This document shows positions 19,754-39,465 of a stretch of 64,000 bases of DNA, in pieces; positions within the stretch are counted from its first letter, which is position 1; each line of letters starts with the position of its first letter. The stretch is taken from NCBI RefSeq assembly GCF_036322625.1, contig NZ_AP027266.1:1491001-1555000 (forward strand), read 5' to 3'. Under the pieces are notes generated by a model that was given only the letters and a program-made list of their open reading frames with translations, was not told the origin of the DNA and did no database searches. The DNA comes from Roseicyclus marinus (lineage in GTDB: Bacteria > Pseudomonadota > Alphaproteobacteria > Rhodobacterales > Rhodobacteraceae). A program made the translations under genes and the position numbers.

Positions 19754-20632
19754 TCAGCCGATCAGCCGCGCGACATAGGGGGGCAGGGCGAAAGCGCCGA
19801 GATGCACCGCGGGCGTATAATAATCGGTCTCGAACCCCGCCGCCGCGAAGCGTTCGGTCAGCGTGGCCAGATCGACGCCCCGCGCTGCCCCATCCGTGCC
19901 CCAGCCAAAGGCCATGGGCCCGCCCGCATAGGTCGGGATCGTCGCAAGATAGCAGGTCGCATCGGCGAAAAGCGCGGTGAAGGCGCGCATCGTGTTCGTG
20001 AGCTCCGCACCCTGCAGAAACGGCACGCCGTTTTGCGTGACGAGGATGCCACCCGGCGCAAGCCGTGCCTTGGCATGGCCGTAGAAGGTGTCGGTGAACA
20101 ACACCTCGCCCGGGCCGACAGGATCGGTGGAATCGACGATGATCACGTCATAGACATCGGCGTTCTGCCGCATGAAATCCGCGCCATCCGCGATCACGAG
20201 GTCAAGGCGCGGATCGTCGAAGGCTCCGGCGGAAATGCCCGGCAGGTGGGATTTGCAGAAATCGACCACCGTTCCGTCGATCTCGACCATGGTGACCTGT
20301 TCGATATCCCGATGCTTGAGCACCTCGCGCGCCATGCCGCCATCGCCGCCGCCCACGATCAGCACGCGCCGCACCGCCCCATGGGCGAAGATCGGCACAT
20401 GGGTCATCATCTCGTGGTAGATGAAATTGTCCGCTTCCGTGACCTGCACCACGCCATCGAGCGTCATGATCCGGCCAAAGGTCGGGTTTTCGAAAACGCG
20501 CAGCCGCTGGTGTTCGGTGGCGCTGTCATAGAATTCGGCGGTGATGCGCAGGGCCTGCGAATGATCGGCGTGCAGACGCTCGACATTCCAGTCCCCGGGC
20601 CAGTCCGCAGGCGAGGGTCCGCGATCGGTCAT
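19754..20632 (-). CDS. speE: Spermidine synthase (polyamine aminopropyltransferase)
   Basis: Transfers an aminopropyl group from decarboxylated SAM to putrescine. The 292-aa protein has the family's N-terminal beta domain, the GGGDGG nucleotide motif at residues 94-99, and the catalytic loop DSTDPVGPGE with Asp167 and Asp170. It lies downstream of speD on the same strand with a 65-base gap, so the two probably form one transcription unit for spermidine synthesis. Confidence 0.94.
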   Translation of the reverse strand: MTDRGPSPADWPGDWNVERLHADHSQALRITAEFYDSATEHQRLRVFENPTFGRIMTLDGVVQVTEADNFIYHEMMTHVPIFAHGAVRRVLIVGGGDGGMAREVLKHRDIEQVTMVEIDGTVVDFCKSHLPGISAGAFDDPRLDLVIADGADFMRQNADVYDVIIVDSTDPVGPGEVLFTDTFYGHAKARLAPGGILVTQNGVPFLQGAELTNTMRAFTALFADATCYLATIPTYAGGPMAFGWGTDGAARGVDLATLTERFAAAGFETDYYTPAVHLGAFALPPYVARLIG

Positions 20633-20697: not shown

Positions 20698-21225
20698 TCA
20701 GGCGGCGGCGGTGTCGCGCACCAGGCCCTCACCGCGGCGCAATTCCTTGACATGCACCGTCTCGGTTCCGAAAGCGCGTTTCAGCACGCCCACGGCCTTC
20801 CACGGATCGGCATCGCCGCACATGAACACGTCAAAGGCCCCGTAGCCGATCTCGGGCCATGTGTGGACCGAGATGTGGCTTTCGGCCAGAACGGCCACGC
20901 CCGATACGCCCTGCGGGCTGAACTTGTGGGTGTGGATGTGCAACAGCGTGGCGCCGCAGGCATCGACGCAATCGCGAAACGCCTGTTCGATCCGGTCCTC
21001 GTCATCCAGGCCGTGGCCGTTCTCGACCTCGATGATCAGATGCGTTCCGGCAAAGACGACGCCGTCGCGCCTTATGAAGTGATCGTCACGGTCGCAATCG
21101 AGCACGTCGCGCTGTGCGACAGGATCTTCAAACACGATGTCAGCGGCCAAAAGGCCGCGGGAGTCTTCCGCATGGGCGCCTGTCTCCAGACCAGTCCCCA
21201 GTTGGAAGAGGTTGGCGCGGGTCAT
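20698..21225 (-). CDS. speD: S-adenosylmethionine decarboxylase proenzyme
   Basis: Makes decarboxylated SAM, the aminopropyl donor used by SpeE. The 175-aa proenzyme has the self-cleavage site LAESHISVHTWPE; Ser116 would become the pyruvoyl group after cleavage at Glu115-Ser116. His and Cys residues in HIHTHKFSPQG and DVFMCGDA match the bacterial class 1 active site. A GGGGGAG ribosome site precedes the ATG. The N-terminal ~50 residues are longer than in minimal SpeD proteins. A highly structured leader lies 36 bases upstream of the start and may control it. Confidence 0.93.
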   Translation of the reverse strand: MTRANLFQLGTGLETGAHAEDSRGLLAADIVFEDPVAQRDVLDCDRDDHFIRRDGVVFAGTHLIIEVENGHGLDDEDRIEQAFRDCVDACGATLLHIHTHKFSPQGVSGVAVLAESHISVHTWPEIGYGAFDVFMCGDADPWKAVGVLKRAFGTETVHVKELRRGEGLVRDTAAA

Positions 21226-21595
21226 GAGCGCTCCCCCTTCTTACCAGCAGAGTGATGTGGTGGGTCCTTAGCGCCCCCCCGAGGTTGCCCTCGAAGTTGG
21301 GATCGGTCCCGGTTCTCGTGGGGGGGCACCTAAGCCCCCGGACCCCCGGGATCAAGGAAAAATTCACGAAAGTGCGAAGGCTGTCGTGCGTCCGTCACCA
21401 TGGGATCGGGGTGAAAATTATGGGGTAAAATGATACCTTATCAGTAAGATATTGTTTTTGCACGGTTTATACAAAAACATGCCGGTTGACGCGCCGTGGA
21501 AATCCCGTAAAAGCACGCCATCGCAGGGCGGCCATGGGCCGTCTTTCGCCATTCCGGCCGGGCCCTCATGCCCGCCCCCGAAAGGACCGAGTGAA
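21226..21595. other. Intergenic region between divergent speD and rplM
   Basis: This 370-base gap holds the structured speD leader (21262-21345). Beyond it is an AT-rich stretch (about 21411-21480, with TAAAATGATACC and TTTATACAAAAA) that is unlike the surrounding GC-rich DNA and probably contains the promoters of both genes. The last ~60 bases before rplM are GC-rich leader ending in the AAAGGA ribosome site. Confidence 0.6.
21262..21345 (-). ncRNA. Candidate structured, switch-like leader RNA of speD
   Basis: In the minus-strand transcript, the 5' arm GGGUCC-GGGGG-CUUAG-GU-GCCCCCCC (21345-21320) can pair with the 3' arm GGGGGGGC-G-CUAAGGACCC (21280-21262). This gives about 18 base pairs interrupted only by a G5 bulge and a small internal loop. 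The same 5' arm can instead fold locally as GGGGGC-UUAGGU-GCCCCC (21339-21322). The enclosed region holds a GAGG-GCAA-CCUC hairpin with a GNRA loop and a GGGA-CCGA-UCCC hairpin. Two exclusive folds this close to a polyamine gene resemble a regulatory leader. I do not match it to a known riboswitch class. Confidence 0.5.

Positions 21596-39388: not shown

Positions 39389-39465
<77 letters not shown>

Follow-up and report, generated by a model that had tools for sequence, protein, structure and literature searches.

A conserved RNA element spanning the leader and first codons of alphaproteobacterial speD, a probable cis-acting translational control element

The window, a 64,000-nucleotide stretch of Roseicyclus marinus contig NZ_AP027266.1, carries speD and speE on its minus strand, divergent from rplM-rpsI on the plus strand. 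S-adenosylmethionine (SAM) decarboxylase, the speD product, commits SAM to polyamines. The genes and the predicted promoter of speD are as follows:

20698-21225, minus strand: speD, S-adenosylmethionine decarboxylase of 175 aa whose N-terminal extension begins with MTRANLFQLG (PF02675, E 1.5e-37)
19754-20632, minus strand: speE, spermidine synthase, the next gene downstream of speD (PF01564, E 1.8e-58)
21223-21225, minus strand: speD start codon ATG, in the loop of helix P3 (see below)
21350-21355, minus strand: -35 hexamer TTGATC of the predicted speD promoter, within a promoter arrangement conserved in the leaders
21328-21333, minus strand: -10 hexamer TTAGGT of the predicted speD promoter, inside the previously proposed 5' arm 21322-21345

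A sequence-only reading had described an 84-base segment (21345 to 21262 on the minus strand, 36 bases before the speD ATG at 21225) as a structured leader with two exclusive folds, a local GGGGGC/GCCCCC hairpin (21322-21345) or a long stem of about 18 pairs around a GNRA-capped hairpin. The coordinates and the distance are correct, the arms are complementary as claimed, and a GCAA-capped hairpin exists in the window. On the speD strand the fold of the 84-mer does not stand out from chance (z -1.67; 12/200 shuffles as good); its plus-strand reading toward rplM was likewise considered and rejected (z -1.28; 29/200 shuffles as good). For wider comparison, the best 80 of 498 related stretches found in genome contigs, together with five further loci and the window, gave 85 readable leaders after removal of one truncated by a contig end (L089), all from Rhodobacteraceae or from unplaced alphaproteobacterial assemblies near them.

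Across these leaders, the pattern TTG(A/C)-N16/17-T(A/T).. (TTGATC N16 TTAGGT in the window) is present in 61/84 against 2.6% of shuffles, and the 23 leaders missing it show, by eye, mostly one-base departures from the strict form. Transcription is predicted from this arrangement to start near 21320, so that the long stem's 5' arm would lie mostly outside the transcript. In 84 leaders there is no sign of co-evolution between the arms of the long stem (cognate arms -15.07 versus non-cognate -15.03 kcal/mol, permutation p 0.38), and its duplex is strong in the window (-27.7 kcal/mol), yet the 3' arms of 18 other leaders pair equally well with its 5' arm. The local hairpin reaches -13.6 kcal/mol in the window, with 2/100 shuffles as good; in the 83 other leaders the promoter-region hairpin averages -3.42 kcal/mol against -3.63 for shuffles (below 0.05 in 5/83), and GNRA loops occur in 5/84 leaders. 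The long stem and the local hairpin are features of a single sequence, that of the window. A switch between them within 21262-21345 can point to complementarity that is real there, at the duplex and hairpin energies just given, but is highly improbable in view of the missing co-evolution, the shuffle-like hairpins and rare GNRA loops elsewhere, and the overlap of the 5' arm with the -10 hexamer. Both proposed folds thus draw on promoter DNA and lack conservation across leaders. The more general proposal of a structured speD leader fared better, in that a conserved covarying element does precede speD, folded otherwise than drawn; the covariation sought in homologous leaders is absent from the long stem and present in a different structure (P1/P2 and P3), and the element runs beyond the segment originally delimited, past the start codon and as far as about codon 18. 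Its upstream part comprises:

21259-21310, minus strand: 5' domain (P1/P2), GGGACCGAUCCCAAC-(P2 hairpin)-GGGGGCGCUAAGGACCCACC, with covariation over 76 distinct leaders
21262-21310, minus strand: P1, pairing GGG 21308-21310 with CCC 21262-21264, CC 21305-21306 with GG 21266-21267, and UCCC 21299-21302 with GGG 21274-21276
21277-21296, minus strand: P2 hairpin, CUUCGAGG (21289-21296) with CCUCGGGG (21277-21284), loop GCAA

Every one of the 85 readable leaders, which belong to the nearest SpeD relatives, has this 5' hairpin domain, with the core UCGG-AACC-GAUCCCAAC-(P2 hairpin)-GGGGGCGCUAAGG-NN-CCGA, and GCUAAGG, preceded by CGA(U/C)CC, lies 45-65 nt ahead of the matched protein start in 85/85. 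Among the 76 distinct rows, P1/P2 positions are paired in 85.7% against 75.7% when shuffled, and the covariation score is 0.280 against 0.133, with 0/500 shuffles as high; pairs changed on both sides show no excess over shuffled rows (9 versus 8.5), six of the 11 pairs of the P2 helix having both-side changes. P1 is weak in the window (3 bp). A locus from another family (L133, genome G498) keeps the core and has P1 replaced by GCGAUG/CAUUGC. Two loci of the window's family (L015 and L016) carry the P3 module, but the hairpin ahead of it is of another kind (UUCCCA..UGGGGCUUCUGGG) and may represent a second 5' domain type.

Downstream of this domain, the leader is complementary to the first codons of speD, the two arms of the predicted helix P3 being:

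21233-21260, minus strand: 5' arm of P3, CCACAUCACUCU-G-CUGGU-AA-GAAGGGG(G), with the Shine-Dalgarno sequence (SD) GAAGGGGG at 21233-21240; pairs with the first codons
21186-21211, minus strand: 3' arm of P3 in the coding region, CCUCUUC-CA-ACUGGGGA-CU-GGUCUGG, from the last base of codon 5 to the first base of codon 14; frozen codons and UTR-coding covariation

In this helix the UTR arm (A)UCU-R-CUGG-..-SD pairs with coding CCUCUUC(CA)AYUGGGGA and leaves the AUG in the loop; the SD is predicted to pair with CCUCUUC, so that the ribosome-binding site (RBS) would be sequestered in a conserved stem. In an alignment of 64 rows (Rhodobacteraceae thinned at 90% to 37, plus 27 others), the outer helix of P3 is paired in 88.4% versus 83.2% shuffled, with covariation of 0.184 versus 0.118 and 0/500 shuffles as high; pairs changed on both sides (4 versus 4.3) and further pair types (11 versus 12.0) do not exceed shuffled rows. 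At pair 16-63, where a Leu codon restricts the 3' side to C or U, A is always matched by U (6/6 rows) and never by C. Among 102 distinct sequences, pairing exceeds shuffled values at n4-d1 (97, against 79.1+-2.1; n4 being a UTR base and d1 the base after GGGG), n3-d2 (69, against 60.0+-2.0) and n2-d3 (48, against 27.9+-3.3), and is not above chance at n1-d4 (94, against 92.4). Cognate P3 arms pair better than swapped ones, by a small advantage in Rhodobacteraceae (n=75; -16.60 versus -16.02 kcal/mol, p 5e-5) and also in other families (n=27; -20.29 versus -18.66 kcal/mol, p 9e-4), relatedness being ignored in both comparisons. The rows for arm pairing were chosen with CURCU(G/A) and GGGG (L096 and L237, having no CURCUG, were dropped), and these columns are invariant because of that selection.

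A structure-blind, gap-free covariation scan of all column pairs (L079 and L096 dropped) placed P1 at ranks 1 and 8 and P3 at rank 7, the other high-ranking pairs not being base-pair-like. Tree-aware tests were underpowered, with one or two supported independent pairs each; the partner never changed in the opposite sense and no median p fell below 0.5, the partner being mostly unchanged for n2-d3 and one P1 test. In synonymous-recoding tests P3 fell below 0.05 in 31/82 and 15/27 genes, a support that is moderate because the peptide itself permits pairing. Two further candidate pairings were rejected. An outward extension of P3 (CUGGAUUC or CCACAUC with GGUCUGG) exceeded the shuffle mean in 27/31 and 18/25 leaders and was individually below 0.05 in only 7 and 6, the window's own segment being no better than shuffles; a pairing of GGCGCU with AGCGCC just before the AUG is seen by eye in many leaders and is broken in several (L065, L074, L106). 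By eye, two loci outside Rhodobacteraceae (L238 and L252) have, just before GGGUCAUCUACUAAUU, a short hairpin that differs at both bases of a pair (CGACAUC/GGUGUCG versus CGGCAUC/GGUGCCG).

The codons across the speD start are frozen at synonymous sites. In 82 of 84 genes matched by a regular expression (L013 and L092 unmatched; 83 genes in a recount with the window), the Gln codon is CAA in 82/82 (27-28% in gene bodies), the Gly directly after it GGG in 82/82 (11-13%), the next Gly GGT in 81/81 (10%) and the Thr codon ACA in 75/82 (6%). Codons 16-17 are GGC in 83/83 and GCC in 82/82 (gene-body shares 71 and 50%, respectively), codon 20 is GAA in 82/82 (45%), and codons are variable again beyond. 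The same holds in 28 further alphaproteobacterial genes sharing this N-terminus, out of 143 loci screened, where CAA is used in 27/28 (about half in gene bodies) and GGG in 28/28 (13%). Such freezing points to a constraint on the RNA and not on the peptide alone. It bears directly on nascent-peptide control, whereby the N-terminal LFQLG-M/I-DL would stall the ribosome or act as a degron and DNA conservation would follow the peptide; the LFQLG-like N-terminus is indeed conserved in many of these SpeD proteins, and the odc1 motif likewise has a conserved peptide, encoded in a separate 11-aa uORF according to the part of PMC8632094 covered. With synonymous sites frozen (CAA, GGG and GGT without exception), UTR bases covarying with codons, and peptide divergence at the loci described below, this explanation is judged quite unlikely.

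Freezing in the window also extends past P3 (21164-21180; codons 16-17 and codon 20), which suggests further RNA structure there. The candidate helix P5 falls in this part:

21270-21276, minus strand: 5' arm GGGCGCU of P5 (candidate helix), pairing with coding GGCGCCC
21174-21180, minus strand: coding arm GGCGCCC of P5, codons 16-17 (GGC GCC) and the next base, the codons invariant as counted above (83/83 and 82/82)

P5 encloses P3 in 6/7 printed minimum-energy folds. Its arms are invariant except in L012, where both sides are changed; together, P1 and P5 would form a pseudoknot. Over 80 leaders folded from the predicted start to codon 21, mean pair probability is 0.62 for P2, 0.52 for the outer P3 helix, 0.19 for P4 (see below) and 0.02 for P1, and it exceeds 0.5 in 43/80 (outer P3), 16/80 (P4) and 0/80 (P1) leaders. 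Enforcing P1, P2 and P3 together costs a mean of 7.4 kcal/mol over the minimum free energy in programs restricted to nested folds, which admit no pseudoknots; the case for P1, being thermodynamically unfavoured, is made by covariation alone. The folds of the window leader are not unusual (z -1.34 and -1.77). The alternative helix P4 joins UTR ACCGAUCCC with coding GGGGAUCGGU at -13.3 kcal/mol, compared with -8.6 for synonymous recodings (66/82 genes below 0.05), L066 being no better than its recodings. P4 is mutually exclusive with part of P3 and is a possible alternative state, and competition between P3/P5 and P4 could, on this model, constitute a natural switch.

Genome searches tie both parts of the element to speD. 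R1, a model of the 5' domain, was found in one copy each in 21/195 relatives and 3/385 genomes of the class, and its 22 distinct loci all lie just upstream of speD, with SpeD about 30 nt downstream. R2, a covariance model of the P3 module, matched 48/385 alphaproteobacterial genomes at E<=0.1, of which 39 are strong matches (E<=5.1e-5). These 39 come from 23 families, occur once per genome and in every case immediately precede a PF02675 gene in the same orientation. As PF02675 is matched in 157/385 genomes, the strong matches cover 39/157 speD-bearing genomes, roughly a quarter under strict filters, about three quarters having no strong match. Eight of the nine weaker matches lie elsewhere and resemble noise; the ninth, in G180, is at speD. 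At phylum level R2 was found in 16/398 genomes (E<=0.01), all Alphaproteobacteria, with the non-class share of the 398 not given and one genome (G825) offering no locus to check.

By tblastn, SpeD lies downstream in 35 of 36 R2 loci. The exception (L298 of genome G831, 1531-2049) starts MAFNDTLFQLGMDL, has the LFQLGMDL start and the P3 module, and encodes the sole PF02675 match of its genome, a sub-threshold AdoMet_dc match (20.2 bits, cut-off 25 bits); the protein is probably related to SpeD but diverged, possibly with altered catalysis. In the window's genus, L014 and L018 have a speD without the N-terminal extension and match neither R1 nor R2. A decayed speD, with the usual ATG position altered and an internal TAA, is present in L017 (genome G059, 1880-2160), preceded by a decayed leader motif found only with filters off; such joint decay is expected if the motif serves speD alone.

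All twelve strong R2 loci outside the training set depart from LFQLG (nine from the printed frame, three from DNA by eye; LSRLG, FADLG, LIRSG, LARIG, LHDLG, TAKLG, LIQLG and LFQSG were printed), while the RNA arms are mostly kept, CURCUGG in 9/12 and GGGGA in 11/12 by eye, in loci that were found by the RNA model. This is the divergence that speaks against nascent-peptide control. The strong conservation of unpaired segments in primary sequence could instead mark a binding site for a protein or trans-acting sRNA at the speD translation start region, but one strong locus per genome implies no regulon and intramolecular complementarity is extensive, so we regard such a site as unlikely. Much the same estimate applies to a fixed attenuation hairpin or RNA thermometer in which P3 would set a low, ligand-independent initiation rate. 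SD occlusion alone would account for P3, and leaders outside Rhodobacteraceae have P3 without the R1 domain, some with short variable upstream hairpins by eye; yet a fixed hairpin leaves unexplained, as a matter of argument, the conserved UCU-R-CUGG/YUGGGGA wobble pairs (conserved in part by selection of rows), the P1/P2 domain with GAUCCCAAC and CGCUAAGG, and the freezing to codon 17 and beyond.

The statement of the sequence-only reading that no known RNA class is recognisable agrees with the Rfam 15 scans made. In the window only a tRNA (39389-39462) reaches the gathering threshold, and the leader region (E<=10) and 10 + 12 related loci (E<=1) gave only sub-threshold matches. SAM-II, SAM-V and SAM/SAH riboswitches and the speF RNA are RNAs associated with proteobacterial genes for methionine, SAM or polyamines; they resemble the speD element in gene association and differ from it in that none was matched in scans of the window and the 22 related loci. 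Nor did any SAM family match in the window, leader or 22 related loci as a SAM-I-like aptamer would, the spermidine-binding SAM-I variant being judged through the Rfam SAM families and not through a model of its own. As in riboswitches generally, a conserved covarying 5' UTR structure stands at a metabolic gene, with a predicted expression platform (SD occlusion); no U run of an intrinsic terminator was seen on inspection between P1/P2 and the ATG in 77 aligned leaders.

A literature search confined largely to the main text of openly available journal papers returned no earlier account of an alphaproteobacterial RNA in the leader or start region of speD; in the parts of the sources covered, a text search of PMC11109978 gave no relevant mention, and SAM decarboxylase is mentioned in passing in PMC4239095. 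The nearest analogue found in design and phylogeny is the odc1 (uORF-25-1) motif of alphaproteobacterial ornithine decarboxylase leaders, in which, according to the portion of PMC8632094 covered, the RBS lies in a long stem and the motif is largely upstream of a separate 11-aa uORF with a conserved peptide and UUG starts. Shared with the speD element are the occurrence in Alphaproteobacteria, a polyamine gene, a stem-held RBS, a conserved start-codon region and suspected control at the level of translation. Judged by its text description there, not by alignment, odc1 is set apart by preceding odc and having the 11-aa uORF (PMC8632094), and the speD element is not odc1 by this comparison: the loci checked lie at speD, or at the sub-cut-off AdoMet_dc gene of L298, and not at an ornithine decarboxylase. 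The RBS placed in a conserved stem by predicted P3 is a resemblance of mechanism, not of membership. The spermidine riboswitch, a SAM-I variant and genetic OFF switch found with speE, speB and speD among others (PMC10853860, in the part covered), shares the speD association and the logic of polyamine feedback, and differs in its SAM-I aptamer base; the speD element includes coding region.

Taken together, these observations make it likely that the element controls translation of the speD mRNA in cis and sequesters the SD, with feedback probably exerted by a polyamine-pathway metabolite; the earlier suggestion of a regulatory RNA for polyamine or SAM levels is plausible from the association with speD. 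The leader and first ~18 codons would form one folded RNA in which the SD and conserved UCU-R-CUGG pair with coding CCUCUUCCAAYUGGGGA (P3). Initiation would be throttled, the SD being paired and the AUG left in the loop, and the closed form, by hiding the SD, would most likely lower speD translation. In Rhodobacteraceae the upstream P1/P2 domain and the UTR-coding helix P5 would join this fold, and UTR ACCGAUCCC could alternatively pair with coding GGGGAUCGGU (P4). We infer that P3 represses, that the element switches and that the signal comes from the polyamine pathway, tipping the RNA between a closed state with P3(+P5) and a state that is open or has P4. The leading guess for that signal is spermidine, by analogy with the end-product feedback logic of the SAM-I-variant riboswitch in the part of PMC10853860 covered, followed by decarboxylated SAM or SAM.

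More tentatively, and as a possibility to which we give less than even weight, the element may be a new riboswitch class through which the speD mRNA senses its own pathway (spermidine, decarboxylated SAM or SAM). The coding region would then supply half of the sensing structure, P3 would present a purine bulge with wobble pairs on either side (UCU-R-CUGG / YUGGGGA), and Rhodobacteraceae would hold the structure locked through P1/P2 and a P5 pseudoknotted with P1. In the literature compared, as far as the sources extend, one polyamine riboswitch class occurs at speD, the SAM-I variant. Screens of intergenic regions could miss the present element because half of it is coding sequence. If the translational control reading is true, a control RNA conserved in 23 families of alphaproteobacteria would become a testable target; it would explain the frozen codons at the start of these speD genes and would warn against codon-optimising those starts.
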